From positions 1 through 44,274 of the forward strand of contig MEGH01000036.1 of the NCBI GenBank assembly GCA_001725415.1: a stretch of 44,274 bases of DNA, given 5' to 3'. Shown here in pieces: positions 275 to 18,992 of this stretch (its first letter is position 1; each line of letters opens with the position of its first letter). This DNA comes from Pseudonocardia sp. SCN 73-27. GTDB taxonomy: Bacteria > Actinomycetota > Actinomycetes > Mycobacteriales > Pseudonocardiaceae. The notes below the pieces were generated by a model, which worked only from the letters and a program-made list of their open reading frames with translations, ran no database searches and was not told the origin of the DNA. Made by a program: the position numbers and the translations under genes.

Positions 275-1210
275 TCACCCCGGCGCGGGCCCGGCGGGAC
301 GGGCGCCGACGGCCTCCATCGCCTCCAAGCGGTGCAGCAGGTGCGTGCCGCGCGCGGTGATGAGCACGATCCCCGCGATGACCACCACCGCGGCGATGCA
401 CTCGCCGGCGAGCTCGGCGGGGGAGGTGTCGAGCTGTTCGCCCAGCCAGCCGACGCCGATGAGGACGGCGACCACCGGGTCGACACTCGTGATCACCGCG
501 ACCGCGGGCGAGATGAGCTTGCCCTGCTGGAACGTGTTCTGGCTGAGCAGGAACCCGAGCGGCCCGATCACGCACACCACGTAGAGCGCCATGTGGGAGA
601 ACGGTTCGGTCCAGCCGACCTGCAGCTGCCCGGTGACGACCTTCATGAGCCCGGCCGTGACGCCGTAGAGGACCCCGGTGGCCAGGGCGAGCGCCAGGAC
701 CCGCGACGGGTGCGACACGACCGCCGCGTACACGAGGCAGCCGACGACCAGCGCGGCGAGCGCGATCCCGAGCGGCAGCCCGTCGGACAGGTCGAGGTTC
801 TCGTGCGCCGCGCCCGGGATGGGCCGGGCCAGCAGCAGGAATGCGGAGAGCCCGGCCGCGCAGCACAGCGCGCCGAGCAGGATCACGACGTCGGGGCGGC
901 GGCGCGCCATGAGTGCCGAGAACCCGGCGGCGAACGCGACACCGGTGACCAGCAGCGGCTGCACGACGGCGATCGGCCCGAACGCGAGCGCGACCAGCTG
1001 CAGCACGAGCGCGACGACCGTGGCGACCAGGCCCAGCAGCCACATCGGGCGGCCGAACAGCTCGACCAGCAGCCGCGGGCTCAGCGTCGGGGTGACCTCC
1101 ACCTCCTTGGTGGCCCGCTGCTGGGCGGCGGTGGCCAGGCCGAAGCCCGCGGCGCCCAGGACGGCAGCGGGTACCGCGATGAACATCCCCACCGAGGAGT
1201 CCACAGCCAC
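275..1210 (-). CDS. DMT-family membrane transporter (EamA-like)
   Basis: This 311-residue protein is almost wholly made of hydrophobic segments, about nine or ten predicted membrane helices in a pattern like the drug/metabolite transporter superfamily. The first helix (residues about 9-28) ends in a short polar stretch with QQRATKEV, and the second half repeats the helix pattern, as expected from the internal duplication of DMT proteins. The chosen start is the GTG at 1210. The substrate is unknown. It ends 4 bases before the SDR start and begins 46 bases after the glycosyltransferase-acyltransferase fusion gene, so all three may form one minus-strand operon. Assignment rests on hydrophobicity and overall resemblance, not on a specific motif. 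Confidence 0.7.
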   Translation of the reverse strand: MAVDSSVGMFIAVPAAVLGAAGFGLATAAQQRATKEVEVTPTLSPRLLVELFGRPMWLLGLVATVVALVLQLVALAFGPIAVVQPLLVTGVAFAAGFSALMARRRPDVVILLGALCCAAGLSAFLLLARPIPGAAHENLDLSDGLPLGIALAALVVGCLVYAAVVSHPSRVLALALATGVLYGVTAGLMKVVTGQLQVGWTEPFSHMALYVVCVIGPLGFLLSQNTFQQGKLISPAVAVITSVDPVVAVLIGVGWLGEQLDTSPAELAGECIAAVVVIAGIVLITARGTHLLHRLEAMEAVGARPAGPAPG

Positions 1211-1255: not shown

Positions 1256-3745
1256 TCACCCCCGGCCGCACGCTTCACTCATATCGCGCAACGACGCGCG
1301 CAGACAATCAGGTATTCCCCCGATGTCGCGGACGATACCGGCGTCCACCGACACTCCCAGCGTCGTCCACCGTCCCCAGTTCAGCGCACCGACGGCGAGG
1401 CCGACCCCTTCTGCCAGCGGCAACACAGGGTAGACCTCCGCGATGAGAGCGCCCTGCATGTGGAGCGGCCTGCGCGCCCCGGGCATGACGGAGGCGAGCA
1501 GATGGAAGAACCGTCGTCCGTAGACGCCGCCGACGAGCAGCCGCTGGGCGCGTCCGGGCAGCAGGCCGAGCAGCCGCAGTACCGCGGCGGCGCCCTCGGG
1601 CTGCCCGCTGGTGGTGCCGCGCTCGAGGAGCTCGGCGACCCGTGCGACGCGGGCGGCCGGCGTCATCGGTCCGGTGGGCAGGTCGAGCGACACCGCGGCG
1701 GTGCGGTTGCCCGCCGAGCGGCTGCCGACGCCACGGGCGGTGCGCGTGGTGAGCGGAACCATGGTGCGGACCCGCTCGGGCGCGCCGCCGGGCGCGTGCG
1801 CCTCGAGGTGCCGGTGCAGGAACTCGGCGACGACGGCCAGCACCAGCGCGGTGGTGCCGACGCCGTGGCTGCGCGCGGCGTCGCGGACCTGCTTGCCGTC
1901 GAGCCGGACACCGATGCGGTGGTGGCCGGGCCCGCCGACCGTCCCGGTGAGCGGTGACCGGCCGGCGGTGCCGGCGGTCGCGAGCCCGGCGACGCCGCGG
2001 ACGATCCGCGCCGCGGCGCGCACCCGGTCCCGCGTCGTGGGCGGCCCACCGGTGTCACCGGGGCCGCGGGCGGGCAGGGCGGCCTCCTCGTCGGTGAACA
2101 GCCGGATCAGGGCGTCGGTGACGGCGAGCCCGTCGCCGAGGGAGTGGTGGACCTTGGCCAGCACCCCGATGCCCTCGCCGCCGGTGTGCCGGGCGATGAG
2201 TATCTGCCAGCCGGTCCGCTCGGCGTCGACGGGATCGGCGAAGAACGCGGTGAGCGCGTCGTCCCAGGTCGCGTGGTCGCCGCCGGGGCCGACGGAGACG
2301 GTGTCGGGGCGGACGTGCCGGTCGGGGTCGGGGGCGGGCTCGACGACCCAGCGACGCGGCCGCCCCGGTTCGACGGGGGCGAGGCGGCGGGTGAGCAGCT
2401 CGATGCCGCCGGCCCGTTCGGTGACCAGCCGGGCGACGTGGTCGCGCCACGCCGCGGCCACCTCGGGGCCCGCGTCGGGGCCGGTGACGTCCTCCACGAG
2501 CAGGCGGGTGCCGACCTGCTGCGGGACGTCGGCGGTCGCGGCGTGCAGGAACAGCGCGTCCTGGGCGCGGACCCGCTCGCCCGGCACGGTGTCGGCCCGG
2601 GCCGGGATCAGGGCGGCGACGTCGGCGGCCAGGTCGCGGCCGACGAGCCGGGACCGCAGCGTCGCCGTGACGGTGGCGCGCGCCGCGGGGTCGACGAGGG
2701 CGGCGACGGCGTCGCGGAGGTCGTCGGTCCCGGGGCAGACGGTGGCCAGGCCCTCCCGTTCGAGCAGCTCGGCATTGGCGCGGCCGTGCCCGGGGATCGG
2801 CGCGAACAGCAGCAGCGGGCGTGCGCAGGCCAGCGCCTCCAGCGCGGTCGCGCCGCCGGCGTTGGTGACGACGGCGTCGCAGTCGCGCGTCGTCGTGGCC
2901 GGGTCGGACACCCAGTCGACGACGCGCATCCGCACCCCGCGCGGATGGTGCCCGGCGAGACGCTCGAGCCGGGTCCGCACCGACGGCACCCGGCCCGCGC
3001 TGACGAGGACGTCGCCGCCGCCGTCGAGCACGGCCGCGCAGGCCCCGGCGACGTCGCCGAAGGCCAGCGACCCGCACGACACGTAGACCAGTGGTCGGGT
3101 GCGGGCGGGCACGTCGTCGGCGGGCGGGGTGAACGCGCCGGCCACGGGCAGCGCGCCGACGCGGACGGCGGCGCCGGGGACGGCGCGCCGCAGCATCCGC
3201 GCACCCTCCGGGGTGCTGACGAGGTGCAGGTCCAGCGCCTTGTCGCCCCACAGCGGGTGCGGTGCCGGGTCGGCGACGAGCGCAGCCACGGGCACGGTCA
3301 GGTGTCCGGTGCGGCGCAGCCGGCCGAGGCCCAGCACCGCCTCCGGGAAGGTGGCGACGACCAGGTCGGGCTCGTGGGCGGCGACGGCCGTCGCGATGCC
3401 GCGGGCGCTCCAGCGCGCCACGACGGCGCGGGTCCCGGCCCGGAACGGCGGCACGCGCCACAGCAGCCGGAAGTACAGCTCGTAGAGCCACGGCAGCCGG
3501 CGGACGCAGCCGGCGTAGATCGCGGGGAAGAGCGACCCGGCGGCGGGGCCCATCGCGTCGAGGGTCTCGGTCCAGACGACCTCGACGCCCGGCCAGAGAG
3601 CACGGGCGCGTTCCTCGACGGCGCGCGCGGCGGCGTGGTGGCCCTCGCCGAGGCTGCCGGTGACGAGCAGGACCCGCCGGGGTGGCCCGGGGCAGGCCGC
3701 GACAGCGGACGGAGGAAGAGGTGCCGTGGTGGTGGAGGTGCTCAT
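1256..3745 (-). CDS. Fusion: MGDG-synthase-type glycosyltransferase + wax ester synthase/diacylglycerol acyltransferase
   Basis: This 829-residue protein contains two enzymes. Residues about 23-380 resemble the MGDG synthase/MurG-like glycosyltransferases that add sugars to lipid acceptors: GSLGEGHHAAARAV at 30-43 is the N-terminal acceptor-loop motif, YVSCGSLAFGD at 221-231 opens the donor domain, and NAGGATALEAL with PGHGRANA (about 295-324) forms the nucleotide-sugar site. Residues about 390-829 resemble bacterial wax ester synthase/DGAT acyltransferases: the catalytic HHxxxDG motif is HHSLGDG at 533-539. A later NRTAAVSLDLP segment matches the second conserved block of that family. One continuous frame with high GC3 joins the halves, and I see no frameshift. 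The ATG at 3745 starts 92 bases from the divergent paralogous glycosyltransferase. An acylated glycolipid product is inference. Confidence 0.85.
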   Translation of the reverse strand: MSTSTTTAPLPPSAVAACPGPPRRVLLVTGSLGEGHHAAARAVEERARALWPGVEVVWTETLDAMGPAAGSLFPAIYAGCVRRLPWLYELYFRLLWRVPPFRAGTRAVVARWSARGIATAVAAHEPDLVVATFPEAVLGLGRLRRTGHLTVPVAALVADPAPHPLWGDKALDLHLVSTPEGARMLRRAVPGAAVRVGALPVAGAFTPPADDVPARTRPLVYVSCGSLAFGDVAGACAAVLDGGGDVLVSAGRVPSVRTRLERLAGHHPRGVRMRVVDWVSDPATTTRDCDAVVTNAGGATALEALACARPLLLFAPIPGHGRANAELLEREGLATVCPGTDDLRDAVAALVDPAARATVTATLRSRLVGRDLAADVAALIPARADTVPGERVRAQDALFLHAATADVPQQVGTRLLVEDVTGPDAGPEVAAAWRDHVARLVTERAGGIELLTRRLAPVEPGRPRRWVVEPAPDPDRHVRPDTVSVGPGGDHATWDDALTAFFADPVDAERTGWQILIARHTGGEGIGVLAKVHHSLGDGLAVTDALIRLFTDEEAALPARGPGDTGGPPTTRDRVRAAARIVRGVAGLATAGTAGRSPLTGTVGGPGHHRIGVRLDGKQVRDAARSHGVGTTALVLAVVAEFLHRHLEAHAPGGAPERVRTMVPLTTRTARGVGSRSAGNRTAAVSLDLPTGPMTPAARVARVAELLERGTTSGQPEGAAAVLRLLGLLPGRAQRLLVGGVYGRRFFHLLASVMPGARRPLHMQGALIAEVYPVLPLAEGVGLAVGALNWGRWTTLGVSVDAGIVRDIGGIPDCLRASLRDMSEACGRG

Positions 3746-3846: not shown

Positions 3847-4989
3847 GTGGAGCTGATCGGCCCGGACGACGGGCCGGGTCGAGTGCTGGTGCTGTCGGCG
3901 CCGGTGGGGGAGGGCCACGTCGCCGCGGCCCGGGCCCTGGCTGCCCGGATGCGGGCGCTCTGGCCCCGAACGGTCGTCCGCGAGGTGGAGAGCACCGGAA
4001 GCAGGGCCCGCGACACGTCGCTGGCCCGCAGCTACGCCGCGACGATGCGCTTCGCGCCCGGTCTCTACGGGGTCGCCTACGACGCGCTGCTGCACGCCCC
4101 GCGCGCCGCCGCCCCGTTCAAGGCGGTCAGCGCGTCGCGGGTGGGTCACGACCTGGCCCCGCTCGTCGACGAGGAGCATCCCGACCTCGTCGTGTCGACC
4201 TACCCGATGACCACCGGCGGGCTGGCGTGGCTGCGCCGCCACGGCCGGCTGCCGGGGCGAAGTGTCGCCGTCGTCACCGACATGGCCGTCCACCCGTACT
4301 GGGCGTGGCGTGACGTCGACGAGACGTGGACGCTGCTGGAGTCCTCCCGCGACCAGGCGCTGGCCGCGGTCCCCGGCGCCGACGTGCGGGTCGCGCCCGC
4401 GGCCGTCGACGTGCGGTTCGCGCCCCGCGACCGGGAGGCGGCCCGCGCCGACCTCGGGCTGCCCCGCGACGGCTTCACGGTGCTCGTGTCGGGCGGCTCG
4501 CTGGGTTTCGGCGACGTCGACCACGTCGTCGACGCCGTGCTGGCCGCGGACGGTCCCGGGACGCCGGTGCGGGCCGTCGTGCTGTGCGGGCGCAACGAGC
4601 GGCTCCGTGGTGCGCTGGAGGCGCGGGGACTGCCGCCGGCCACGCTGCAGGCGCTGGGCTGGACCGACCGGGTGCCCGATCTGATCGCGGCGAGCGACGT
4701 CGTCCTCACCACCGCGGGCGGAGTCATCGCGACCGAGGCGCTGGCGGTGGGCCGGCCCGTCGTGTTCGCCGCGCCGGTGGCCGGGCACGGGCGTGCCGGG
4801 GCGCGGCTGGCCGAGGACGCCGGGCTGGCGCTGGTCTGCCCGCGCCCGTCCGACGTCACCGCCACGATCACGCGGCTGGCCACCGACCCGGAGGTCGTCG
4901 CACCGCTGGCCGCGCGGGCCGCGGAGTTCGGCGTCCGTGATCTCGACGCCGCCCTGCGGGCCCTGGGTGCGCGGGTGCGCAACGCCTGA
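3847..4989 (+). CDS. MGDG-synthase/MurG-like glycosyltransferase
   Basis: A 380-residue glycosyltransferase of the same family as the N-terminal half of the divergent fusion gene. It carries SAPVGEGHVAAARALAAR near the N terminus (lipid acceptor loop), VSTYPMTTGGLAWL, VSGGSLGFGD (start of the donor domain, comparable with YVSCGSLAFGD in the neighbour) and TTAGGVIATEAL with AGHGRAGA for nucleotide-sugar binding. It lacks the acyltransferase domain. The open frame extends upstream to 3682, but coding signal begins near VVELIG. I choose the GTG at 3847 because a -10 hexamer ends seven bases before it; the GTG at 3838 is the alternative. The pair probably arose by duplication. Transfer of a sugar to a diacylglycerol-like or polyprenoid lipid is family-based inference. 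Confidence 0.8.
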   Translation: MELIGPDDGPGRVLVLSAPVGEGHVAAARALAARMRALWPRTVVREVESTGSRARDTSLARSYAATMRFAPGLYGVAYDALLHAPRAAAPFKAVSASRVGHDLAPLVDEEHPDLVVSTYPMTTGGLAWLRRHGRLPGRSVAVVTDMAVHPYWAWRDVDETWTLLESSRDQALAAVPGADVRVAPAAVDVRFAPRDREAARADLGLPRDGFTVLVSGGSLGFGDVDHVVDAVLAADGPGTPVRAVVLCGRNERLRGALEARGLPPATLQALGWTDRVPDLIAASDVVLTTAGGVIATEALAVGRPVVFAAPVAGHGRAGARLAEDAGLALVCPRPSDVTATITRLATDPEVVAPLAARAAEFGVRDLDAALRALGARVRNA

Positions 4990-4997
4990 CCCGCAGG

Positions 4998-5678
4998 TCA
5001 GCCCACGCGCATCCGGGCCGCGGTGGGCAGGCCGACGCGCAGCCGGATGCCCTGTCCGCGCATGGAGCGGTGGAACCACAGCAGCGACGTGACGATCCCG
5101 AGGCCCACCAGCGAGTACGAGCCGGCCGTCGACACCATCAGGTAGTTGCCGACGGTCTGGGTGGCCAGCACCGCGAGCGTCGTGGCTCCGTTGACCAGGA
5201 AGACGATCGCCCACAGCAGCGACACCCGCCTGAAGAACCGCTTCATGTGCGGGTGCCCGGTGAGGCTGTCGGGGAAGGCGCAGAAGTCGTCGGCCAGCTT
5301 GGCCAGCAGCGGTCGGTCGAAGCCGAGCGTCACCAGCAGCAGCAACGCGAAGACGAAGTTCTGCACCGTCGGCTGCAGGAAGTACAGGAACGCGCTTCCC
5401 GTGCACAGACCGACGACGGTCCGGGCCACCAGCAGCACGGTGCTGAGGACGAGGATCGCCGGGATCTTCCGGCGCATGACCAGCCTGCGCCCGATGGCCA
5501 CCGCCGACCAGGACAGGGCTGCGATCAGCCCTGCGTCGAACCCCGCGTGGGTGAACAGCACCCAGAACAGGGCCAGCGGGACGAGCGTCGACTCCAGGAG
5601 GGGACGCCCGGCCTGCCGCAGCAGAGACCCGACGGGCGGGAGATGGATCAGGGTGGTCACACGGGGGTGGTCCGGCAT
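4998..5678 (-). CDS. VC0807-type multi-pass membrane protein
   Basis: A protein of 226 residues (from ATG 5678) with about six hydrophobic segments. A central soluble patch, DRPLLAKLADDFCAFPD, is followed by HPHMKRFFRRVSLLWA, a layout I associate with the VC0807 family of uncharacterised membrane proteins. The frame could begin at ATG 5717, but that codon lies inside a good -10 hexamer (TATGCT, 5719-5714 on the minus strand), so transcription would begin after it. The later ATG at 5678 has GGAGAGG upstream, although at a long spacing. The gene converges on the glycosyltransferase, leaving only 8 bases between stop codons. It follows hpnH in the same direction but appears to have its own promoter. 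No function is known to me. Confidence 0.65.
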   Translation of the reverse strand: MPDHPRVTTLIHLPPVGSLLRQAGRPLLESTLVPLALFWVLFTHAGFDAGLIAALSWSAVAIGRRLVMRRKIPAILVLSTVLLVARTVVGLCTGSAFLYFLQPTVQNFVFALLLLVTLGFDRPLLAKLADDFCAFPDSLTGHPHMKRFFRRVSLLWAIVFLVNGATTLAVLATQTVGNYLMVSTAGSYSLVGLGIVTSLLWFHRSMRGQGIRLRVGLPTAARMRVG

Positions 5679-5713
5679 TCGCGCGGTCCGCCTCTCCAGT
5701 CGGGGTCCCCAAA

Positions 5714-5743
5714 GCATACCGACCCCGATAACGAGGAGATAAC
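5714..5743 (-). promoter_or_regulatory. Promoter with GTTATC direct repeats before the membrane protein gene
   Basis: On the minus strand a -10 TATGCT (5719-5714) is preceded by two GTTATC copies whose starts are 11 bases apart (plus-strand GATAAC at 5727-5732 and 5738-5743), bracketed by CCCCG and CGGGG. The repeats occupy the -35 region, so they could be an operator or part of the promoter itself. Confidence 0.35.
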
Positions 5744-5796: not shown

Positions 5797-6801
5797 TCAG
5801 CTTCCTGTCGCGGCGCGCAGGGACTGGCGCAGCGACCCCATCGTCACGAACACTGCCGAGGGCTCGTACCCGCAGTGCGCCATGCAGTTCGCGCACCGTT
5901 CGTCCTTGCCCCGGCCGAACGCGTCCCAGTCCGTCTCGTCGATGAGTTCCCGGTACGTCTTCACGTACCCGTCGTCCAGCAAATAACACGGCTTCTGCCA
6001 GCCGAGCAACGAGTACGACGGAATGGCCCACGCCGTGCAGTTCAGGTCGATCTTGCCCTCGAGGAAGTCGAGGAACACCGGCGAGTGGTTGAGCCGCCAC
6101 TTCTTGCGCCGGCCGCCGTCGAACGCCTTGCGGAACAGCTCCCGGGTCTGCTCGACGCCGAGCCAGTGCTCCTGGTCGGGCGCCTTCTCGTAGGCGTAGC
6201 CGGGGGAGATCTGCATGTTGTCGACGCCGAGCTCGTCGTTGAGGTAGTCGAGCACGTCGATGACGTCCTGCGGCGTGTCGGTGTCGAAGAACGTCGTGTT
6301 CGTGTTGACGCGGAAGCCCAGCTCCTGGGCCTGCTTGATCGCGGCGACCGCCTGGTCGAACACGCCGTCCTTGCTCACCGACGCGTCGTGGCGTTCGCGC
6401 AGGCCGTCGATGTGGACCATCCACGCGAAGTTCTTGTGCGGGCTGAACCTGTGGATGTGCTTGGGCAGCAGCACCGCGTTGGTGCACAGGAACACGATCT
6501 TGTTCCTGTCGAGCAGCTGCCGGACGATCTCGTCGATCTGCGGGTGCATCAGCGGCTCGCCGCCGGCGATGGACACCATCGGCGCGCCGGACTCCTCGAT
6601 CGCGCCGACCGCCTGCTCGACGGGCATGCGCTGCTTGAGCAGCGCGGCGGGCTGCTGGATCTTGCCGCAGCCGTTGCACTTCAGGTTGCACGCGAACAGC
6701 GGTTCGAGCTCGACGAGCAGCGGGAACTTCTCGACGCGCTTGATCTTCTGCTTCATCAGGTACGCGCCCAGCCGCACGGACTGACGCATCGGCATCGCCA
6801 T
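5797..6801 (-). CDS. hpnH: Adenosyl-hopene transferase HpnH (radical SAM)
   Basis: A 334-residue radical SAM enzyme matching HpnH, which adds the 5'-deoxyadenosyl group of SAM to hopene to make adenosylhopane, the first C35 hopanoid. The CxxxCxxC cluster ligands are C38, C42 and C45 (CNLKCNGC), followed by SIAGGEPLMHP, the glycine-rich SAM-binding segment. A C-terminal cysteine group (RCANCMAHCGYEP) is also typical of the family. The length is normal. It ends the hopanoid operon: its ATG shares one base with the TAA stop of the HpnG-IspH gene (TAATG), and AAGGAGGTGAG lies just upstream, so translation is probably coupled. HpnH and the HpnG domain act on consecutive intermediates. Confidence 0.95.
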   Translation of the reverse strand: MAMPMRQSVRLGAYLMKQKIKRVEKFPLLVELEPLFACNLKCNGCGKIQQPAALLKQRMPVEQAVGAIEESGAPMVSIAGGEPLMHPQIDEIVRQLLDRNKIVFLCTNAVLLPKHIHRFSPHKNFAWMVHIDGLRERHDASVSKDGVFDQAVAAIKQAQELGFRVNTNTTFFDTDTPQDVIDVLDYLNDELGVDNMQISPGYAYEKAPDQEHWLGVEQTRELFRKAFDGGRRKKWRLNHSPVFLDFLEGKIDLNCTAWAIPSYSLLGWQKPCYLLDDGYVKTYRELIDETDWDAFGRGKDERCANCMAHCGYEPSAVFVTMGSLRQSLRAATGS

Positions 6802-8330
6802 TACCGGCTCACCTCCTTGGGAAGGGTGAATCTGACGTTCTCGGAACCGGTCGAGGTGGCCGTGACGGTCACCGGGCCGAGCCCGGACATGCAGGAGACG
6901 ACCTCGTCGACGAGGTCGTCGGGAGCGGACGCGCCCGCCGACAGCCCGACCCGGCGCACACCGGCGAGCCAGGTCAGGTCGAGCTCGCCGACGTCGTCGA
7001 CGAGGTGGGCGGGCACACCCTGCCGGGCGGCGACCTCGGCGAGGCGCCGCGAGTTGGACGAGTTCGGGGAGCCGACGACGACCACGAGGTCGACGTCGGC
7101 GGCGACGGCGCGGACGGCGCGCTGCCGGTTGGTCGTGGCGTAGCAGATGTCGTCCTGGCGGGGTGCGCGGATCGCGGGGAACCGCTCGCGCAGGATCGCG
7201 GCGATCCGGTCGGCCTCGTCGACGGCCAGGGTCGTCTGCATGGCGTAGGCGACGCGGGTGGGGTCGGGCACGTCGACGGTGCGGGCGTGCTGCTCGTCCT
7301 CGACGACCCGGATGTGCGCGGGCGCCTCGCCGACGGTGCCCTCGACCTCCTCGTGGTCGGCGTGCCCGATGAGCAGGACGGTCTGTCCGCGCCCGGTGTA
7401 CCGTCTCACCTCGGTGTGCACCTTGGCCACCAGCGGGCAGGTCGCGTCGACGACCTGCAGGCGGCGGGCGTCTGCGTCGGCGCGGACGGCGGGGGAGACC
7501 CCGTGCGCGGCGAGGACGACGTGGGCGCCGTGGGGTACCTCGTCGACCTCCTGCACGAAGATCGCGCCGCGGTCGGTGAGCCGCCGCACGACGTGGGCGT
7601 TGTGCACGATCTGGCGGCGCACGTAGACGGGGGCGCCGAACCGGTCGATGGCACGGTCGACGATCTCGATGGCCCGTTCGACGCCGGCGCAGAACGAGCG
7701 CGGCTCGGCCAGCCGGACGGTGCGGGGGCCGGTGGCGTCGAGCCAGGCCCGCAGGGCGGGCGCGGCGCGGCGCAGGGTGCGCAGCGCGGTGAGCCCGCGG
7801 ACGGGGGTGCCGGGGCGCAGCAGGGGAGCGCCGGGGGTGTCGACGACGACGCGGACCACCGCGAACGGTCCGCCCGCGGCGGCGGTGGCGAGGTCGGCGG
7901 ACTCCATGTCGACGGCGAGCGCACCCGTCGTGGACAGGGCGATCCGAGTGTCCCCGTCGACGACCCCGTCGGTGGTGACGACCGGCCCGACGTGCACCCG
8001 CAGCCCGAGAGCCCGCAGCGCGGCGGCGAGCGGCTCGGCCGTCGGCACGGCGACGGGCCCTCGCGCGCCGGAACCGTCGCGGACCTCGGAGGCGACGACG
8101 ACGTCACCGGGCCGGACCTGCGGGGCGAGCGCCCCGGCCACCCCGGCGACGAGCACGGGCCGCGGGCCGTCGGCGCCCAGGGCGCGGGCGGCCGCGGCGG
8201 AGCGCCTGCCCATCCCGGTGCGGGCGATCCGCACCCCGGTCAGGGCGTCGACGTCGAGGGCGCGGCGTTCCACGCCGAGCGGTGCGCACACCACCGGCGG
8301 TCCGAGTGCGTCCGGCACGGCGGCCCTCAC
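6801..8330 (-). CDS. hpnG/ispH: Fusion: HpnG-type hopanoid phosphorylase/nucleosidase + IspH (HMBPP reductase)
   Basis: A 509-residue two-domain protein. Residues 1-200 resemble HpnG, the nucleoside-phosphorylase-type enzyme that removes adenine from adenosylhopane: VVCAPLGVERRAL, a Gly-rich VAGVAGAL, TTDGVV and the DMES segment at 141-144, which in this superfamily holds the catalytic/ribose-binding Glu. Residues about 204-509 are IspH, which reduces HMBPP to IPP and DMAPP in the MEP pathway. Iron-sulfur ligands are C214 (SFCAGVERA), C298 (ATCPLV) and C396 (DICYATTNRQ); substrate histidines are H243 and H276, and GSPNSSNSRRL is the conserved SxN loop. The start GTG at 8330 overlaps the cyclase stop (GTGA). 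The frame is open further upstream to 8999, but that stretch is a shadow of the cyclase gene. Confidence 0.9.
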   Translation of the reverse strand: MRAAVPDALGPPVVCAPLGVERRALDVDALTGVRIARTGMGRRSAAAARALGADGPRPVLVAGVAGALAPQVRPGDVVVASEVRDGSGARGPVAVPTAEPLAAALRALGLRVHVGPVVTTDGVVDGDTRIALSTTGALAVDMESADLATAAAGGPFAVVRVVVDTPGAPLLRPGTPVRGLTALRTLRRAAPALRAWLDATGPRTVRLAEPRSFCAGVERAIEIVDRAIDRFGAPVYVRRQIVHNAHVVRRLTDRGAIFVQEVDEVPHGAHVVLAAHGVSPAVRADADARRLQVVDATCPLVAKVHTEVRRYTGRGQTVLLIGHADHEEVEGTVGEAPAHIRVVEDEQHARTVDVPDPTRVAYAMQTTLAVDEADRIAAILRERFPAIRAPRQDDICYATTNRQRAVRAVAADVDLVVVVGSPNSSNSRRLAEVAARQGVPAHLVDDVGELDLTWLAGVRRVGLSAGASAPDDLVDEVVSCMSGLGPVTVTATSTGSENVRFTLPKEVSR

Positions 8331-10228
8331 GACGGCTGCCCGTTCACGTACCGGCCGAGCGCCGAGACCGGGAAGACCATGCGGTAGAGGTGGTAGCGGA
8401 TGTAGAAGGCGCCGGGGAAGCCGGTGCCGGTGTAGAGCGTCTCCTCCCACGACCCGTCGGGCAGCTGGGTGTCGACGAGGTACCGGACGCCCCGTTCCAC
8501 GACCTCTCCGTCCTCGCCGGCGGCCAGCAGCGCGAGCAGCGCCCACGCCGTCTGCGACGCGGTGGAGGCGCCCTTGCCGATCCAGGCCGGGTCCTCGTAG
8601 GAGCGCAGGTCCTCGCCCCAGCCGCCGTCGGTGTTCTGATGGCGTTCCAGCCAGGCCACGGCGCGGCGGATCGGTGGCGTGTCCGGGTCGATGCCCCCGG
8701 CGACGAGCGCGGGGACGACACCGCCCGTGCCGTAGACGTGGTTGGCGCCCCAGCGGCCGAACCACGACCCGTCGCGCTCCTGCGCGGCCAGCAGCCATTC
8801 GACGCCGCGACGGCACTCCGTCGTGTGCGCGAGCCCCTCGGCGGCCATCATCTCCACGACGTGCGCGGTGACGTCGGCCGACGGCGGGTCGATGACGGCG
8901 CCGAAGTCGCAGAACGGCAGCTTGGTGACGAGCTCGCGGGTGTTGTCGGCGTCGAAGGCGCCCCAGCCGCCGTCGCGCGACTGCATGCCGACCGTCCACG
9001 CGACCCCGCGGTCGACCGCCGCCCGCACCCGCTCCGGCACCGGGTGGGCGACGCGGCGGAGGGCGAGGACGACCTCGGCGGTGTCGTCGGTGTCGGGGTA
9101 GCCGTCGTTGTCGAACTCGAACGCCCAGCCGCCCGTGGGGATCTCGGGGCGGCGCACGGCCCAGTCACCGCGGACACCGGTGATCTCCTCGGCGAGCAGC
9201 CACTCGGCTGCGGCGAGGACGTCGGGGTCGTCGGCGGGGACACCGGCGTCGAGCAGCGCGGTCACTGCGAGGCACGTGTCCCACACAGGTGACTGGCACG
9301 CCTCCAGGCGGCGCACGACGCCGTCCGGGGTCTGCTCGCGGATCAGGAACCGGTCGAGGCCGCGGAGCCCGGCGGCGACGGCGGGATGGTCGAGCGGGTA
9401 GCCGAGCAGGTGCAGCGCCAGGATCGAGTACACCCACGGCGGCTGGATGCCGCCCCACGAGCCGTCGGCCTCCTGGCGGGCCAGCACCCACTCCGCCGCC
9501 CGGCGCATCGCGAGCCTGCGCACGCCGCGCAGGGGGCGCCGGGAGTAGGCGTGCAGCACCTTGTCGAGGCGCTGGAACGCCCCCGCCCAGCTCCAGGGCT
9601 TTCCGAGTGGTGGGGCGGCGGCACCGGTGCGCAGCTCGTCGACGTCGAAGGGGAGCGGCCGGCAGGGCCGCAGCGTCGCGACCACGGTGAGGGGGACGAC
9701 GGTCTGGCGTGCCCAGCAGGACCAGTCGTAGACGTTGAGCGGGAACCACTTCGGCAGGAAGATCAGCTCGGGCGGCATGTCGGGCAGCTCGTCCCAGGAC
9801 CACAGTCCGAACAGTGCCAGCCAGATGCGGGTGAAGACGCGGCTGCGCTCCAACCCGCCCTGCGAGACGACGAACTTCTGCGCGCGCAGCATGTGCTCGG
9901 CGTCGGGGGCGTCGCCGGCGAGCCGCAGCGCGACCCATGCCTCGATCGTCGTCGAGAGGTCCGCGGGGCCGTCCTGGAACGTCGCCCAGCTGCCGTCGGC
10001 ACGCTGGCGCGACCGGATCCAGCGGGCCGCCTCCGCGGTCTCGGTGTCGGTGCGGATGCCCAGGAACTCTCGCAGCAGCAGGTCCTCGGCGTCCATCGTC
10101 ACGTTGGTCTCGAGCTCGCCCTGCCACCAGCCGTCGGGATGACGACCGGCGCGCAGGAATGCGACGGCAGCGTCCAGCGCAGCCCGCGGCGTGCGGGTCG
10201 CGAGGAGCTCCGGCGCGGTGAGGGTCAT
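8327..10228 (-). CDS. shc: Squalene-hopene cyclase
   Basis: A 633-residue class II triterpene cyclase that converts squalene to hopene at the membrane. The protonating DxDD motif is DTDDTA at 379-384. QW-type repeats occur along the chain, for example GSWATFQDG, GSWGGIQ, GGWGAFDAD, GSWFGRWG and GGWGEDL. PKWFPLNVYDWSCWARQT near 159-175 is a conserved SHC segment. The length is normal for the family. Its ATG shares one base with the stop of the polyprenyl synthase gene (TGATG), and its stop overlaps the start of the HpnG-IspH gene by 4 bases. In the operon it takes squalene from HpnC/D/E and passes hopene to HpnH. Confidence 0.96.
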   Translation of the reverse strand: MTLTAPELLATRTPRAALDAAVAFLRAGRHPDGWWQGELETNVTMDAEDLLLREFLGIRTDTETAEAARWIRSRQRADGSWATFQDGPADLSTTIEAWVALRLAGDAPDAEHMLRAQKFVVSQGGLERSRVFTRIWLALFGLWSWDELPDMPPELIFLPKWFPLNVYDWSCWARQTVVPLTVVATLRPCRPLPFDVDELRTGAAAPPLGKPWSWAGAFQRLDKVLHAYSRRPLRGVRRLAMRRAAEWVLARQEADGSWGGIQPPWVYSILALHLLGYPLDHPAVAAGLRGLDRFLIREQTPDGVVRRLEACQSPVWDTCLAVTALLDAGVPADDPDVLAAAEWLLAEEITGVRGDWAVRRPEIPTGGWAFEFDNDGYPDTDDTAEVVLALRRVAHPVPERVRAAVDRGVAWTVGMQSRDGGWGAFDADNTRELVTKLPFCDFGAVIDPPSADVTAHVVEMMAAEGLAHTTECRRGVEWLLAAQERDGSWFGRWGANHVYGTGGVVPALVAGGIDPDTPPIRRAVAWLERHQNTDGGWGEDLRSYEDPAWIGKGASTASQTAWALLALLAAGEDGEVVERGVRYLVDTQLPDGSWEETLYTGTGFPGAFYIRYHLYRMVFPVSALGRYVNGQPS

Positions 10229-11283
10229 CAGAACTCCCTGTCGACGAGGTGGTGGGCCAGGGCGACGAGCTCACTGCACGCCCCGGGCACGAGCCCGGCG
10301 CCGGTGACGGCGTCGAGTGCGGCGTCGCGGCGGCGGCGGGCCTCGGCGGCAGCCCAGGCGCGGCCCCCGCCCTGCTCGACGAGCCGCGCGGCGGCGCGCA
10401 GCTCCTCCTCGGTCGGGTCGCCGTCGCGGGCCAGCCACGTGGCCAGCTCGCGGCCCGCGTCGCCGCCGTTGCGGACGGCAAACGTCACCGGCAGTGACTT
10501 CTTGCGCGATCGCAGGTCCGACAGCACCGGTTTGCCGGTGACCGCCGGGTCGCCCCAGATGCCGAGCAGGTCGTCGACCAGCTGGAACGCCATACCGACC
10601 TCGTGGCCGTAGACGTGCAGGGCCTCGGTCTGCGAGGCCGGCGCACCGGCGAGGACGGCACCGATCGACGCGCTCGCCGCCAGCAGCGACCCGGTCTTGC
10701 CCGACGCCATCGACAGGCACTCGTCGACGCCGACGTCGTCGCGGGTCTCGAAGGCGAGGTCCTCGGCCTGGCCGCGGATCAGCTCCCGGGTGGTGACGGC
10801 CAGCAGCCGGGCCGCGGCCGCGGCATGCGGGGACGGCGCCTCGAGCAGCACCTCCTGGGCGAGGGCGAGCATCGCGTCGCCGCACAGGATCGCCGACGAC
10901 GCCCCCCACTGCACCCACACCGTGGTGCGGTGGCGGCGTTCGGTGTCGCCGTCCATGAGGTCGTCGTGCAGCAGCGAGAAGTTGTGCACCAGCTCGACGG
11001 CGACCGCCCCGGGCACCCCCGTGCCGGCGTCGGCACCGGCCGCGGTGGCCGAGAGCAGCGCCAGCGCGGGACGCACCGCCTTGCCGCCGCCTGCGCCGGG
11101 CGAGCCGTCGAGCTCGGTCCAGCCGAGGTGGTAGCGGGCCTGGGTGCGGCTCGCGTCGTCGAGGCGGTCGACGGCGGCCTGCAGCGCCGGGGTGACGGCG
11201 TCGCGGCCACGCCGCAGCACCCGGGTCGCGACGTCGCGGTGGTCGCCTCCCGGAGTGATGGACTGCCCGAGGGTCGCGGTCAT
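10228..11283 (-). CDS. Polyprenyl (farnesyl/geranylgeranyl) diphosphate synthase
   Basis: A 351-residue trans-prenyltransferase that condenses IPP with allylic diphosphates. The first Asp-rich motif is DDLMD at 107-111 (HDDLMDGDTERRHR). The second reads DDLLGIWGD from D237, with Gly at the fifth position, a form I know from actinobacterial family members. GKxxR-type IPP binding appears as GKAVRP (67-72). The product length (C15 or C20) cannot be decided from sequence, but the location between hpnE and shc suggests farnesyl diphosphate for squalene. The start is ATG 11283, which overlaps the hpnE stop (ATGA); the frame is open upstream only as an hpnE shadow. Confidence 0.9.
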   Translation of the reverse strand: MTATLGQSITPGGDHRDVATRVLRRGRDAVTPALQAAVDRLDDASRTQARYHLGWTELDGSPGAGGGKAVRPALALLSATAAGADAGTGVPGAVAVELVHNFSLLHDDLMDGDTERRHRTTVWVQWGASSAILCGDAMLALAQEVLLEAPSPHAAAAARLLAVTTRELIRGQAEDLAFETRDDVGVDECLSMASGKTGSLLAASASIGAVLAGAPASQTEALHVYGHEVGMAFQLVDDLLGIWGDPAVTGKPVLSDLRSRKKSLPVTFAVRNGGDAGRELATWLARDGDPTEEELRAAARLVEQGGGRAWAAAEARRRRDAALDAVTGAGLVPGACSELVALAHHLVDREF

Positions 11284-12686
11284 GCCGCCACCCCCGCGGT
11301 GACGCTCGTGTGGGCGAGCGCGGCCGCGGCGGCCGCCTCCCCGCTGCGCACGGCACCCTCCATCGTCGCGGGCCACCCGGTGGCGGTCCATGCCCCGGCC
11401 AGGGTCACACCGGGCAGCGCGGTGACCGGTCCGGGGCGCAGCGCGGCCTGACCGGGCGCGGCCCGGAAGGTGGCGTGCGGCTCGCGCGTCACGAAGAAGT
11501 CGAGCACGTGCGCGGACGCGGCGTCGGGGAGCACCGCGGCAAGCGCCGGCAGCATCAGCTCACGCAGTGCGGCGAGCGGCATGCCGACGAGGTCGTCGGC
11601 GGCCGACAGCGACACGGCCACGTACTGGGCGTCCGGCGGGTGCACGTGGCGGGCTCCCGAGGAGTCGGTGCGGTCGAACACCCACTGGACCGGGCTGTCG
11701 ACGGCCGCGGCGAAGTCGTGGTGCAGCACCCGGCGGTCGTAGACGACGTGCACGTCGACGATCGGGGAGCTGCCGAGCCGCTCGGCCCAGCCCGCAGCGA
11801 GGTCGAACGCCCCCTCCGGAAGCAGCCGGGTCGCGACGGTGGGTGGGACGGCGGACACGATCCGGTCGACCACGTACTCCTCCTCTCCGCCGGGCCCGGG
11901 GTCGCCGGGTCCGGCCTGCGCGTGCGTCTTCTGTGTGACGGCGACCCGCCAGCCGTCGGGTCCCGCGGTGAGCGCTCGGACCTTCGCCCGGGTCCGGACG
12001 TCGACGCCCGCGGTGGCCAGCGCGGCCCGCGCGGCGTCGTCGTGCAGGCGGCCCAGCGGGACGCGGGCCCAGCCGACGTCGCCCGCGGCGGCGTCGGTGA
12101 GCAGGCCCAGCTGGAACACCGTGGCGGCCAGGGCGAGCGAGGCCTTCTCGGCGCGGGCGTTGAGCGTCGCGATGCCGACGAGGTCCCACAGCGTCGCCAC
12201 GGCCCGCGGGCTCTGCCCGTGCGCGGCCAGCCAGTCACCGAACGCCCGGCCGTCGACCGCCGGGTCGGCCGGGTCGACCCGGCCCAGCGCGAGCGCGGCG
12301 CGCAGGACGCGGAGCCGGTCGGCGAGCGGCATGGGTGCGTAGCGCAGCAGCGCCGCACCCAGGTGGAACGGGGCGGGCAACCCGGTGCGCCGCAACCGGG
12401 ACGGCCGCGCACCGGGGGCCAGGACGGGGATGTCGAGCCGGTCCTGCAGCGCGACCTGGTCGCGGACGCCGAGCCGGTCGAGGAACGCCAGGTAGGAGGT
12501 GCAGCAGCGCAGGACGACGTGCTGGCCGGTGTCGACGTCGAGCTCACCGCGACGGAACGAGCCCGCGACCCCGCCGAGACGTGCCCGCGACTCCCACAGC
12601 GTCACGTGCGCGCCCGCGTCGGCGCACCGCAGCGCGGCGGCGACGCCGGCGAGCCCGCCCCCGATCACCCCCACGCGGACACTCAC
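11280..12686 (-). CDS. hpnE: Hydroxysqualene dehydroxylase HpnE
   Basis: A 468-residue FAD-dependent amine-oxidase-type protein. It opens with VGVIGGGLAGVAAALR, the FAD dinucleotide-binding fold, followed by VTLWESRARLGG, the acidic end of the second strand and the conserved RxGG. The C terminus has GVTLAGAWTATGWPATMEGA, the second FAD contact. In the HpnCDE route, this enzyme reduces hydroxysqualene to squalene. The start GTG at 12686 overlaps the hpnD stop by 4 bases (GTGA); a longer open frame to 13151 is a shadow of hpnD. Phytoene-desaturase relatives share the fold, but the position between hpnD and a prenyl synthase settles the call. Confidence 0.92.
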   Translation of the reverse strand: MSVRVGVIGGGLAGVAAALRCADAGAHVTLWESRARLGGVAGSFRRGELDVDTGQHVVLRCCTSYLAFLDRLGVRDQVALQDRLDIPVLAPGARPSRLRRTGLPAPFHLGAALLRYAPMPLADRLRVLRAALALGRVDPADPAVDGRAFGDWLAAHGQSPRAVATLWDLVGIATLNARAEKASLALAATVFQLGLLTDAAAGDVGWARVPLGRLHDDAARAALATAGVDVRTRAKVRALTAGPDGWRVAVTQKTHAQAGPGDPGPGGEEEYVVDRIVSAVPPTVATRLLPEGAFDLAAGWAERLGSSPIVDVHVVYDRRVLHHDFAAAVDSPVQWVFDRTDSSGARHVHPPDAQYVAVSLSAADDLVGMPLAALRELMLPALAAVLPDAASAHVLDFFVTREPHATFRAAPGQAALRPGPVTALPGVTLAGAWTATGWPATMEGAVRSGEAAAAAALAHTSVTAGVAA

Positions 12687-13615
12687 ACCCGCACACCTCC
12701 CGGCGCCCGCCCGGCCAGCGCCTTCACCGCGACCCCGACCTTCTGCCGGCCCGACAGCGACCGGCGCTGGTGGTAGACCGACGGCGGGTCGGCGGCGATG
12801 TCGTCGAGCAGCTGGCGGTAGATGCCGGCCATCGCGGTGGCGCAGGCGGCGCTGCGCCGGTCGAGCAGCGGGACCAGCCGCAGCCCGTCGGCGTACCACT
12901 GCCGGGCCCGCGCGGCCGAGAAGCGGATCAGCTCGGCCAGCGCGCCGTCCGGGTCGGGAAGGTTGCCGCGGTCGTCGAGACGCAGATCGACGCCGAACCG
13001 GGCGAGCTCGTCGGTCGGCAGGTAGACGCGGCCGTTGCCCAGGTCCTCGCGGATGTCGCGCAGGATGTTCGTCTGCTGCAGGGCGATGCCCAGGGCGTCG
13101 GCGTAGGCGGGGGCCTCCGGGTACGGGCGGGACCCGAAGATGCCCAGGCACAGCCGCCCCACCGAGCCCGCGACCTGGCGGCAGTAGCCGGCCATGTCGT
13201 CGAAGGTGGCGTAGGGGGCGCTCGCGCCGGGCTCGTCGTCCATCCGCACGTCGGCCTCGACGCCGTCGACGAGCTCGTCGAACGCGCCGAGCGGGATCGG
13301 GTAGTGCCGGGCGGCGTCGGTGACCGCGACCATCACCGGGTCGCGCGGGTCGGGCTCGGCCTCGCGGGCCTGCCGCACCGACATGCGGACCTGCTCCAGC
13401 GCGGCGAGCTTTCCGGCGGTCGACGGGTCGCCTCCCGCGTCGCCGTCGCCGATGTCGTCGATGCGCCGTGCCAGCGCGTACACCGCCGACAGCGCCGCAC
13501 GCTTACGGGGCGGGAGGAGCCGGATACCGTAGTAGAAGTTCCGCGCCTGGTCCCGCGTGATCGCCTCGCTCGCCGCGTACGCGCGCTCGACGGGGGTGGA
13601 CGGGCTGCGGCTCAT
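12683..13615 (-). CDS. hpnD: Presqualene diphosphate synthase HpnD
   Basis: A 310-residue squalene/phytoene-synthase-type enzyme that joins two farnesyl diphosphates into presqualene diphosphate. It has both Asp-rich motifs: DDIGD at 53-57 (ALARRIDDIGDGD) and NILRDIREDLGNGRVYLP further on, together with NFYYGIRLLP near the N terminus, typical of HpnD. The C terminus ends normally in a basic tail. The start ATG at 13615 overlaps the hpnC stop (ATGA). It and HpnC are homologues but act in sequence rather than redundantly. Confidence 0.93.
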   Translation of the reverse strand: MSRSPSTPVERAYAASEAITRDQARNFYYGIRLLPPRKRAALSAVYALARRIDDIGDGDAGGDPSTAGKLAALEQVRMSVRQAREAEPDPRDPVMVAVTDAARHYPIPLGAFDELVDGVEADVRMDDEPGASAPYATFDDMAGYCRQVAGSVGRLCLGIFGSRPYPEAPAYADALGIALQQTNILRDIREDLGNGRVYLPTDELARFGVDLRLDDRGNLPDPDGALAELIRFSAARARQWYADGLRLVPLLDRRSAACATAMAGIYRQLLDDIAADPPSVYHQRRSLSGRQKVGVAVKALAGRAPGGVRV

Positions 13616-14574
13616 ACGGTGCCCTGCTTCCGGGACTCGTGCTCTCGTGACGGACGGGTCAGGTCGCGGACCAGATGCCGGACGACGTCGCGGCGTTTCG
13701 CCTCCGGCGCTCCGGCGAGGACGTCGAACCCGCTGCGGCGCAACGCATCCGCCGCGGCCCGGCCGCCCGCGGCGTACCCGGCCACTGCGATCCGGGCCCA
13801 GCCGTGCAGCCGGCCGATCAACGGTGCGCCCTCGTCGAGCAGCGCGCATGCCCGGCCGGTGACCTCGGCGAGCAGCGCGCGCAGCGCGGGAGAGGCGTGC
13901 GGAGCGTCGAGTTCACTCTCCTCGACACCGAACGCGGCCAGGTCGTCGGTGGGCAGGTACACCCGGCCGCGGGCCCGGTCCTCGGCGACGTCCTGGCAGT
14001 GCTCGAGGATCTGCAGGGCGGTGCAGATCCGGTCCGACCAGCGCTGCAGGTCGGACCCGGGTGGGGCGTCCACACCGAACACGGAGAGGACCATCCGGCC
14101 GATCGGGTCGGCCGAGAGCACGCAGTAGCCGAGCAGCTCGTCCCACGTGCGGTACCGCGTGACGTACTGGTCGGCGAGGTTGGCCGCGACGAGCCGTTCG
14201 AACGGTTCCCTGGTCAGCCCGCACGCCCGCGCCGTCGGCACCAGCCGGCGCAGGACGGGCGCCTCCGGACCGGCGCCGTCGACATCCCAGACCCGCCGCA
14301 GGTCGGTGCACAGCCCGTGCAGCCGCGCGGTCCGTTCGGCGGCCTCCTCCGGGGTGACGGGACACAGAACCTGTTGCGCCCCATCGGAGTCGCCGTCACC
14401 GATGTCGTCGATGACGCGGACGACGTCGTAGACCGCCCGCAGGTGGGCGCGGGTCGCCGCCGGCAGCACCCGCAGTGCCACCGGGAAGTTCTCGGACCGC
14501 TCCGCGTCCCGCAGACGGGCCTCCGTCGGCTCCGCCGCGGGCACCGGCGCCGCCCCCGTCCGCCGATCTCCCAC
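13612..14574 (-). CDS. hpnC: Hydroxysqualene synthase HpnC
   Basis: A 320-residue squalene-synthase-type enzyme, first gene of the hopanoid operon, which converts presqualene diphosphate to hydroxysqualene. It shows ERSENFPVALRVLP near the N terminus (the ENFPVA form is characteristic of HpnC), VIDDIGDGD as the first Asp-rich motif, and HCQDVAEDRARGRVYLP as the second. I place the start at the GTG 14574; the much longer open frame upstream lies antisense to the PucR gene. CAGGAT ends seven bases before this GTG and could be a weak -10 for a leaderless message. The divergent PucR-type gene starts 125 bases away. Confidence 0.9.
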   Translation of the reverse strand: MGDRRTGAAPVPAAEPTEARLRDAERSENFPVALRVLPAATRAHLRAVYDVVRVIDDIGDGDSDGAQQVLCPVTPEEAAERTARLHGLCTDLRRVWDVDGAGPEAPVLRRLVPTARACGLTREPFERLVAANLADQYVTRYRTWDELLGYCVLSADPIGRMVLSVFGVDAPPGSDLQRWSDRICTALQILEHCQDVAEDRARGRVYLPTDDLAAFGVEESELDAPHASPALRALLAEVTGRACALLDEGAPLIGRLHGWARIAVAGYAAGGRAAADALRRSGFDVLAGAPEAKRRDVVRHLVRDLTRPSREHESRKQGTV

Positions 14575-14699
14575 GACCCGAATCCTGCTCCCGCTGTGCG
14601 GCGATCTCTGCGCACCTGCGGTTAATTCTGGACGCCCGGACTTGTCACATCCTGATAAACCAGGTGAGTGAAGTACCCCGACAGGCGTAGAAAAGATGT
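14575..14699. promoter_or_regulatory. Divergent hpnC / pucR promoter region
   Basis: This 125-base gap is more AT-rich than its surroundings. On the plus strand TAGAAA (14688-14693) lies six bases before the GTG of the regulator and could be a weak -10. A small dyad, CCTG-N6-CAGG at 14651-14664, sits between the two starts and is a possible operator. No clear -35 is visible in either direction. Confidence 0.4.
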
Positions 14700-15890
14700 G
14701 TGGACGTTCAGGACTCGTCCCTGACCGAGCTGCTGCCGGTGCTGGCGGACCGCCTTCCCGCGCTGCTCGCCGAGGTGCGCTCAGCACTCGGTGAGGAGTG
14801 GCCCGACTACGCCGATTTCCTGCACGAGCACGAGGTCGAGGTCGAGGTCGCCGCCGAGGCCGCGCTGCGCCGTCTCGTGACGATGGCCGGGTCCCCGAGC
14901 GCCGACGACGGCGTCGGCCCCGAACTGTTCGAGGAGATCGGCCGCATCCAGTGGCGGGAGGGCCGTGACCTGTCGGCCCTGCTCGGCGCCTACCAGGTCG
15001 GGGCGCGGGTCTGCTGGCACCACGTGTCGGCCGCCGCCGTCGAGATCGGCGTCGAGCCCCGCACCCTCGCCTCCCTCGCCGAGGCCGTGTTCTTCTTCGT
15101 CGACAAGCTGTCGTCCTCATCGGCGCGCGGCTACGTCCTCGAACAGTCCGAAGAGGCCGCCACCCGCGAACGTCAGCGCGACGAGCTCGTCTCATTGCTG
15201 CTGTCCGACCGGGCCGACCAGGCCGCCGTTCGCGTCGCCGCCGCCCGCGCCGGATGGACGGTGCCCAGCGAGGTCGGGGTCGTCCTCATCCAGCGTGACA
15301 GCCCGATCGGGCACCGCGTCCTCTCCCGCATGGACGCCTCCTGCCTGGTGTTCAGCCGCCCACCGCTGCTCGGCGCGATCGTGCCGGACCCGTCCCGGCC
15401 CGGGCTGCGCCGCCGGCTCGGCCTGATGCTGCGCGGCGCGGGTGCCGTCGTCGGCGTGACCGTGCCGCCCGACCGGCTGCCCGCGAGCCTGCAGATCGCC
15501 GAGATCGCCGCCCGCCTGCAGCGCACCGGTGTGCTGGCCGACGACCCGATCTTCACCGACGAGCACCTCGACGCGATCATCGTGCACCGCGAGCCGCGGC
15601 TGCTCGAGGCGCTGCGCGGGCAGGTCCTCGGCCCGCTGCACTCGTCGACGCCGGCGTCGCGGGAACGGCTCGTCGAGACGCTGGGGGCGTGGCTGCGGCA
15701 CATGGGCGACCGCCAGGCCATCGCCGCCGAGCTGCACGTGCACCCCCAGACCGTGCGCTACCGCCTGGCCAAGCTGCACGAGCTGTTCGGCGACGACCTC
15801 GACGACCCCGAGATGCGGGCCCGGCTGATGCTGGCCCTGTCGTGGGGCGAGCCGCACGCCTCGGCGACGGAGCCGGTCAGCTCGTCGTGA
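14700..15890 (+). CDS. PucR-family transcriptional regulator
   Basis: A 396-residue regulator. The C-terminal 70 residues form the PucR helix-turn-helix: a leader helix (LVETLGAWLRHMGDRQAIA) then AELHVHPQTVRYRLAKLHELF and a DDLDDPEMRARLMLAL tail, where HxxTVRYRLxK is the family hallmark. The middle (about 150-290) resembles the GGDEF-like PucR effector region, and the N-terminal half is an alpha-helical RsbT-co-antagonist-like segment. GTG 14700 is the likely start. It is divergent to the hopanoid operon and so is a candidate regulator of it, though this is only positional. Its 3' end overlaps the convergent aldolase gene by 14 bases. Confidence 0.88.
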   Translation: MDVQDSSLTELLPVLADRLPALLAEVRSALGEEWPDYADFLHEHEVEVEVAAEAALRRLVTMAGSPSADDGVGPELFEEIGRIQWREGRDLSALLGAYQVGARVCWHHVSAAAVEIGVEPRTLASLAEAVFFFVDKLSSSSARGYVLEQSEEAATRERQRDELVSLLLSDRADQAAVRVAAARAGWTVPSEVGVVLIQRDSPIGHRVLSRMDASCLVFSRPPLLGAIVPDPSRPGLRRRLGLMLRGAGAVVGVTVPPDRLPASLQIAEIAARLQRTGVLADDPIFTDEHLDAIIVHREPRLLEALRGQVLGPLHSSTPASRERLVETLGAWLRHMGDRQAIAAELHVHPQTVRYRLAKLHELFGDDLDDPEMRARLMLALSWGEPHASATEPVSSS

Positions 15891-16533: not shown

Positions 16534-16539
16534 GGTCGT

Positions 16540-16546
16540 TATCGTC
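16540..16546. promoter_or_regulatory. Overlapping back-to-back -10 elements for aldolase and kinase
   Basis: On the plus strand TATCGT (16540-16545) ends seven bases before the kinase GTG at 16553. On the minus strand GACGAT (16546-16541) ends seven bases before the aldolase ATG at 16533. The two hexamers occupy almost the same bases, so polymerases could not bind both at once. The plus-strand element is the better match to TANNNT. Confidence 0.45.
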
Positions 16547-16552
16547 GCCGTC

Positions 16553-17992: not shown

Positions 17993-18050
17993 CCCGCCCG
18001 TCCGACACACCCCTGTGCGCGGCTCTGGTGGCGGCCGGGGCTGTCGCAGG

Positions 18051-18614: not shown

Positions 18615-18627
18615 GGCGCGGAGGGTA
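18615..18627 (-). promoter_or_regulatory. Leaderless promoter of the lipoprotein gene, -10 TACCCT
   Basis: On the minus strand TACCCT (18627-18622), then CCGCGCC, then the ATG. The spacing is identical to the layouts before 3847, 16553 and 37640. Confidence 0.5.
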
Positions 18628-18779
18628 GAGGTCGGCGTGATGTGCGTCGCCTACGCTCGGTTTCGGTAACGATTCAGAAGATCGACGCGTCATACCGGGT
18701 GAGCGCGACGACGCGCCCCGGCCGGGCCGTCGACCCGGCCGAGAGCTCCCGACACCGACCAGCATCGGAGGAACACAAG

Positions 18780-18902: not shown

Positions 18903-18941
18903 GATGACGCCCCCGGCGCACGACCCCGGGGGAGCACGAGA

Positions 18942-18976
18942 AAGGGCCGGTACCGCGTGAGCGGGTACCGGCCCTT
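18942..18976. terminator. Bidirectional hairpin terminator
   Basis: A perfect 13-bp stem (AAGGGCCGGTACC at 18942-18954 with its complement at 18964-18976) and a 9-base loop lies between the converging small gene and the small membrane protein gene. A short CTTCCTC follows on the plus strand. Confidence 0.75.
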
Positions 18977-18992
18977 CCTCGTCGTCAGGTGA

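Follow-up and report, generated by a model that had tools for sequence, protein, structure and literature searches.

A glycosyltransferase-WS/DGAT fusion encoded beside hopanoid genes in Pseudonocardia and relatives: a candidate hopanoid-tailoring enzyme

Lipids that receive a sugar and a fatty acid

Hopanoids are sterol-like lipids of bacteria and give rise to geological biomarkers that are long-lived. Several triterpenoid or sterol lipids are finished by the addition of a sugar and then a fatty acid. Staphyloxanthin, for example, is a C30 carotenoid completed by a glucosyltransferase and an acyltransferase, and sterol glucoside acyltransferases carry out the second of these steps on glycosylated sterols; in both systems the enzymes are separate proteins with acceptors other than the one considered here.

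Sugars and fatty acids have also been described on hopanoids. In the HpnI-HpnK-HpnJ route to composite hopanoids, a sugar is placed on bacteriohopanetetrol, and the same source lists HpnB as a glycosyl transferase associated with hopanoids whose function is unknown (PMC12583986). N-acylglucosaminyl-bacteriohopanetetrol has been described from Alicyclobacillus (PMC8537080), while in Hypericibacter terrae bacteriohopanetetrols are reported to bear one or two ester-linked fatty acids, in a paper whose main text does not use the word 'acyltransferase' (PMC12583986). A search of titles and abstract openings, with subscription journals mostly outside its scope, returned neither a fusion of a glycosyltransferase (GT) with a WS/DGAT acyltransferase nor a hopanoid acyltransferase, and the literature covered named no enzyme for hopanoid O-acylation and no acting hopanoid sugar transferase besides HpnI. 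The gene described here would be a single candidate for both reactions, and a named species with a complete genome encodes a relative of 80% identity.

A single frame with two lipid-enzyme halves

The window analysed comprises the first 44,274 bases of a 66,631-base contig from the 6.95-Mb genome of Pseudonocardia sp. SCN 73-27. Its minus strand carries, at 1256..3745 (stop included), an 829-residue frame that starts with ATG and has no internal stop. Three Pfam models score over their gathering cut-offs on the protein: MGDG_synth (PF06925; residues 36-200, 46.2 bits, cut-off 25), WS_DGAT_cat (PF03007; residues 394-589, 42.5 bits, cut-off 23.6) and WS_DGAT_C (PF06974; residues 679-822, 52 bits, cut-off 20.7). 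The GT half occupies residues 22-380 (2606..3682, minus strand) and the WS/DGAT half residues 393-829 (1259..2569, minus strand). A profile built from 13 fused relatives (A2) matches, with its first half, the solved structures of a processive diacylglycerol glucosyltransferase (9wde) and of MGDG synthase 1 (4wyi) and, with its second half, two structures of the WS/DGAT type (6chj and 7nxg).

Sequence motifs are preserved in both halves. His36 and Glu303, which we take to be the conserved His of the GxGH motif and the donor-site Glu of the MGDG synthase/UgtP family, are found in 39/40 and 40/40 aligned fused rows, respectively. The acyltransferase motif HHSLGDG is intact at residues 533-539 (2129..2149, minus strand); across the 47 aligned hopanoid-type WS rows (40 fused and 7 other), both His and the Asp of HHxxxDG are invariant and the Gly is present in 46. 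The preliminary description of this DNA had recognised one uninterrupted frame joining an MGDG-synthase-type domain to a WS/DGAT domain with an intact HHSLGDG, and the domain models, structural matches and motif alignment all agree with it. The architecture that it expected was recovered for PF06925, PF03007 and PF06974 in one chain; the GT28 C-terminal model PF04101 was not called by Pfam in the window's fusion protein, and is called in some relatives and in a neighbouring GT.

Both halves stand apart from their best-known relatives. The GT half is homologous to the diacylglycerol glucosyltransferase UgtP/YpfP and to plant MGD1, sharing their conserved His and Glu; unlike them, it is joined to a WS/DGAT domain and tied to hopanoid clusters, and it scores far under the cut-off for diglucosyl diacylglycerol synthases (NF010135; 85 vs 500 bits). 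The WS half keeps both Pfam domains and the motif of WS/DGAT acyltransferases, yet it does not reach the cut-off of the WS/DGAT subfamily model (TIGR02946; 158.7 vs 309.95 bits). Judged from sequence, each half is a diverged member of a known superfamily and falls outside the narrower model for its best-known activity. The domain families are already known; what is new is their architecture and pathway context. A structure prediction from a 6-sequence alignment gave a pLDDT of 57.9 and a pTM of 0.42, and no claim is built on it.

Fused frames in relatives dispose of two trivial explanations that had been raised at the outset, namely an assembly error and a pair of genes that are always adjacent but separate. 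Homologues in many genomes carry one open fused frame, which is unbroken in relatives down to ~38% identity and also occurs in Pseudonocardia dioxanivorans CB1190, whose chromosome is complete and whose copy reaches 80% identity in the best segment. The dN/dS ratios of both halves are 0.11-0.24 against the three closest relatives and 0.33-0.48 against two distant ones, values that indicate purifying selection on the GT half and the WS half alike.

Hopanoid genes, the transporter and the history of the family

The fusion gene lies beside a hopanoid gene cluster. Some 45 bp downstream of it, on the same strand, is a DMT/EamA-family transporter gene (275..1210, minus; NF038012 and EamA over cut-off). 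On its other side and divergently oriented is a second, unfused GT of the MGDG-synthase type (3847..4989, plus; PF06925 and PF04101 over cut-off; the start codon is our choice), followed by a VC0807-family protein (4998..5717, minus; NF041646, 113.4 bits, cut-off 65). The hopanoid genes then run on the minus strand. HpnH, the adenosylhopane-forming radical SAM enzyme, is encoded at 5797..6801 (TIGR03470, 507.9 bits, cut-off 225) and squalene-hopene cyclase at 8327..10228 (TIGR01507, 743.6 bits, cut-off 431). Between them, one open frame (6801..8330, upstream end approximate) joins an HpnG-like phosphorylase domain to IspH (PNP_UDP_1 and LYTB over cut-off), and is thus a second fusion within the same cluster; the HpnG model TIGR03468 stayed under its cut-off in a scan of only a partial piece of this protein.

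The remaining genes of the cluster, also on the minus strand, encode a polyprenyl diphosphate synthase (10228..11391; PF00348), HpnE (11280..12674, start approximate; TIGR03467, 410.2 bits, cut-off 283), an HpnD-like presqualene diphosphate synthase of the SQS_PSY family (12683..13849, start uncertain; TIGR03465, 271 bits, just under the cut-off of 278.6) and a second SQS_PSY protein that is putatively HpnC by position (13612..15195, start uncertain; PF00494). The top NCBIfam model for the polyprenyl synthase is that of a family 2 encapsulin cargo polyprenyl transferase, at 410 bits and under the cut-off of 450. HpnI (TIGR03472), which belongs to a different GT family, was not found over its cut-off in the window's genome (best 42.7 vs 310 bits); the model also matched in 9/14 control genomes, never over the cut-off. 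A different sugar transferase would therefore be needed for any glycosylated hopanoid made by this organism.

The position of the fusion is conserved. A full fused frame with wide flanks was examined in 35 distinct genomes, that is, the window and 34 further loci, and in 34/35 (window included) hopanoid genes lie in the same stretch. These 34 also have a transporter match, which is hence found in all 33 other hopanoid-linked loci. The exception, locus L054 of genome G010, has no HpnH at the threshold used, and its fused copy is altered at His36, Asp159, Asn295 and Gly539, among other residues.

Within the genus, HpnH was detected in 24 of 62 genomes (over its cut-off in 23), and the fusion family in all 24, in G006 as the WS half only. 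The 38 HpnH-negative genomes include only 2 carriers, the decayed G010 and G084, whose match lies at a contig edge. Carriers were defined here by a match of >300 bits to the A2 profile, contig-edge pieces included (G029 at 309 bits, G081 in two contigs, and G084); G012, with an unfused GT at 276 bits and no HpnH, falls just under this threshold. In the 78%-complete assembly of G076, where HpnH is under the family cut-off, the fusion gene lies in several frames and was counted as present from separate pieces. HpnH is encoded within 12 kb of the gene in 23/24 HpnH-positive genus carriers (in G006, the pieces are on different short contigs) and in 24/28 further HpnH-positive carriers from the order sample, the four exceptions all belonging to one genus.

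Wider samples gave a similar picture. Among 298 genomes of the order, scoring of 3 candidates per genome (E <= 1e-75) yielded 31 matches, 30 of them in genomes with HpnH, which itself occurs in 51/298. These matches are not all fused: four are a GT alone, three are the WS half only, and that of G326, which lacks HpnH, is an unfused GT. Among 394 genomes of the class, scoring of 2 candidates per genome (E <= 1e-80) returned the window and G551, a member of another family in which hopanoid genes and the transporter are present; with so few candidates at such strict thresholds, weaker members are missed. Fisher tests of the association with HpnH give p = 3e-15 in the genus and 2e-26 in the order, shared ancestry and a shared locus being ignored by the test, and the association partly reflects the inheritance of one locus. 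A strong match was absent from 21/51 HpnH-positive order genomes, all from families other than the window's. Loci were examined for 13 of these 21 genomes (12 and one more): the 12 mapped hopanoid loci comprise four with a GT match (L119, L120, L125 and L133), two with a WS match (L127 and L132) and six with neither, and their unfused GTs fall into distant groups of the GT tree. In the window's own family, Pseudonocardiaceae, a predicted hopanoid cluster has been noted in Kutzneria albida (PMC4210621).

The transporter follows the GT rather closely. In a survey of GT/transporter pairing in 19 selected genomes, a strong transporter match (E <= 6.1e-34) was found in 10, each with a copy beside a GT or GT-WS gene at a distance of at most ~1.9 kb; G186 carries an additional copy, located on a different contig, for which no neighbouring GT match was listed. 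A GT match was found in 11/19, the eleventh being the decayed G010, which is without a strong transporter match. Neither was matched in the other eight genomes, three with an eroded GT and five others. The transporter stays with the GT even where both have left the hopanoid cluster, and both are missing where the GT is eroded, which suggests that this DMT-type protein handles the glycosylated product and is a candidate flippase. G012 and G326 retain a related GT-transporter pair and have no HpnH, so this GT group can act outside hopanoid metabolism as well.

Trees were built for the WS half (64 rows, midpoint root) and the GT half (75 rows). The trees and motif counts exclude duplicated loci and incomplete frames (L116, L137 and the fused piece of L057), the WS tree also excludes the L128-L132 fragments, and L113 was kept in the GT tree but omitted from the WS tree and motif count. 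In the WS tree, one group (100/99) unites the 40 GT-WS rows with two rows whose GT is eroded and a single WS-only row, and 16/17 sampled ordinary WS/DGATs cluster separately (93/96), the exception being the long-branch paralogue L006. Three more WS/DGAT-like genes lie within ~26 kb on another contig of the window's genome (G000:C26:179899-205710); L004 and L006 are very long branches in this tree.

In the GT tree, 41 fused GTs and the four unfused GTs of one genus form one group (97/94), with the unfused four nested inside it (100/98), an arrangement that we read as fission. The window's second GT belongs to a separate 18-row group (100/100). Taken together, the two trees are most simply explained by a single origin of the fusion, after which most of the GT would have been lost in one genus and the halves split in another. 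In the GT-eroded genus, ~130 residues remain ahead of the WS half, and the WS half stays in the hopanoid cluster. Two such loci carry an intact WS half behind an eroded GT remnant (L109:9147-10790 and L111:8713-10680); at the threshold used, their hopanoid clusters contain no transporter and no second GT. In the split genus (4 genomes), the GT and transporter are far from the hopanoid cluster, and the hopanoid loci examined (2/4 genomes scanned whole) carry a PAP2-WS fusion.

Fusions of this second kind, PAP2_3-WS/DGAT, are found beside hopanoid genes in other lineages (L058:9348-11345, L127:6622-8799, L141:2897-4933 and L142:3322-5382). Like the GT-WS proteins, they place a WS-type domain behind an N-terminal lipid enzyme; that partner is PAP2, however, and not a GT. 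Their four rows form the neighbouring group of the GT-WS proteins in the WS tree, with weak support for the shared branch (96/27).

The probable acceptor

The repeated occurrence of relatives beside hopanoid genes makes it probable that the enzyme attaches both a sugar and a fatty acid to hopanoids. Our best reading, to which we give a probability of roughly 0.6, is that the fusion protein tailors hopanoids through two active sites, one glycosylating and the other O-acylating the molecule, and that the transporter flips the resulting product. HpnH and the HpnG-like domain would supply ribosylhopane or bacteriohopanetetrol. The GT half would transfer a sugar from a nucleotide sugar to the polyol side chain of this hopanoid, and the WS/DGAT half, through HHxxxDG and an acyl-CoA, would form an ester on the same molecule, at a hydroxyl of the sugar or of the side chain. 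The DMT-type transporter would then flip the glycosylated product across the membrane, and the expected product would be an O-acylated, glycosylated hopanoid. A more specific version is that of an acyl-glycosyl-hopanoid synthase: the side chain of the hopanoid would be first glycosylated and then acylated by a single polypeptide, with the DMT protein that is paired with the GT serving as flippase. This version is plausible but more tentative, and we would put it at somewhat less than even odds.

The preferred hopanoid reading draws on the linkage, the co-occurrence with HpnH, the decay of the non-hopanoid copy and the retention of the WS half after erosion of the GT, and also on the four PAP2-WS/DGAT hopanoid loci, the lack of an HpnI over cut-off and the acylated hopanoids known elsewhere. 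Set against it are the GT-transporter pairs without HpnH, the distance of GT and transporter from the cluster in one genus, the absence of a strong match from 21/51 HpnH-positive genomes of the order, and the activity of the solved GT relatives on diacylglycerol lipids.

This last point is the starting place of the main alternative, in which diacylglycerol is the acceptor: a glycosyl-diacylglycerol would be made and acylated, or diacylglycerol shuttled between membrane glycolipid and storage triacylglycerol, and the adjacency to hopanoid genes would be a mere grouping of membrane-lipid functions. The nearest solved GTs are indeed a diacylglycerol glucosyltransferase and an MGDG synthase, WS/DGATs produce triacylglycerol or wax esters, and the pairs in G012 and G326 persist in genomes without HpnH. 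However, retention of the family tracks HpnH and not WS/DGAT genes generally, which are also present in HpnH-negative genomes of the genus, and the WS half is both well under the WS/DGAT subfamily cut-off and apart from nearly all ordinary WS/DGATs in the tree. Diacylglycerol is thus the weaker reading and in our view unlikely. The preliminary description had suggested a shared lipid substrate for the two halves, with diacylglycerol as a possible acceptor or as cargo between membrane and storage lipids. The fusion, the two enzyme classes and the idea of a shared lipid hold up; diacylglycerol is not favoured, since in different genera and families the gene stays tied to the hopanoid cluster.

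The halves might also serve separate substrates, the GT and transporter making and flipping a glycolipid while the WS half alone acylates the hopanoid, with the fusion setting only their ratio or place. The GT and transporter do travel apart from the WS half, as in the genus where they stand alone and a PAP2-WS fusion occupies the hopanoid cluster, and another genus has kept the WS half after erosion of its GT. Against this, the GT-WS fusion has been retained across several families, a pattern most readily explained by a substrate common to both halves, and we regard separate substrates as rather improbable. An acceptor of the staphyloxanthin type, a C30 carotenoid or another squalene-derived product, would fit the two SQS_PSY proteins and the desaturase-like amine oxidoreductase of the cluster. 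That oxidoreductase is HpnE over its cut-off, though, and hopene cyclase and HpnH are both present, leaving very little room for this explanation.

If the version with an acyl-glycosyl-hopanoid synthase is correct, bacteria would have in this lipid a counterpart of the acyl steryl glycosides, and the WS-type domain of hopanoid clusters, whether fused to a GT or to PAP2, would be a hopanoid O-acyltransferase. The fusion would also point to the transporter and to the alternative PAP2-WS proteins as parts of the same lipid-finishing step.

Beyond the hopanoid genes, the window continues at 15880-23211 with genes for a class II aldolase, a PucR-type regulator, an FGGY kinase, a sodium:solute symporter and a galactose-1-phosphate uridylyltransferase.
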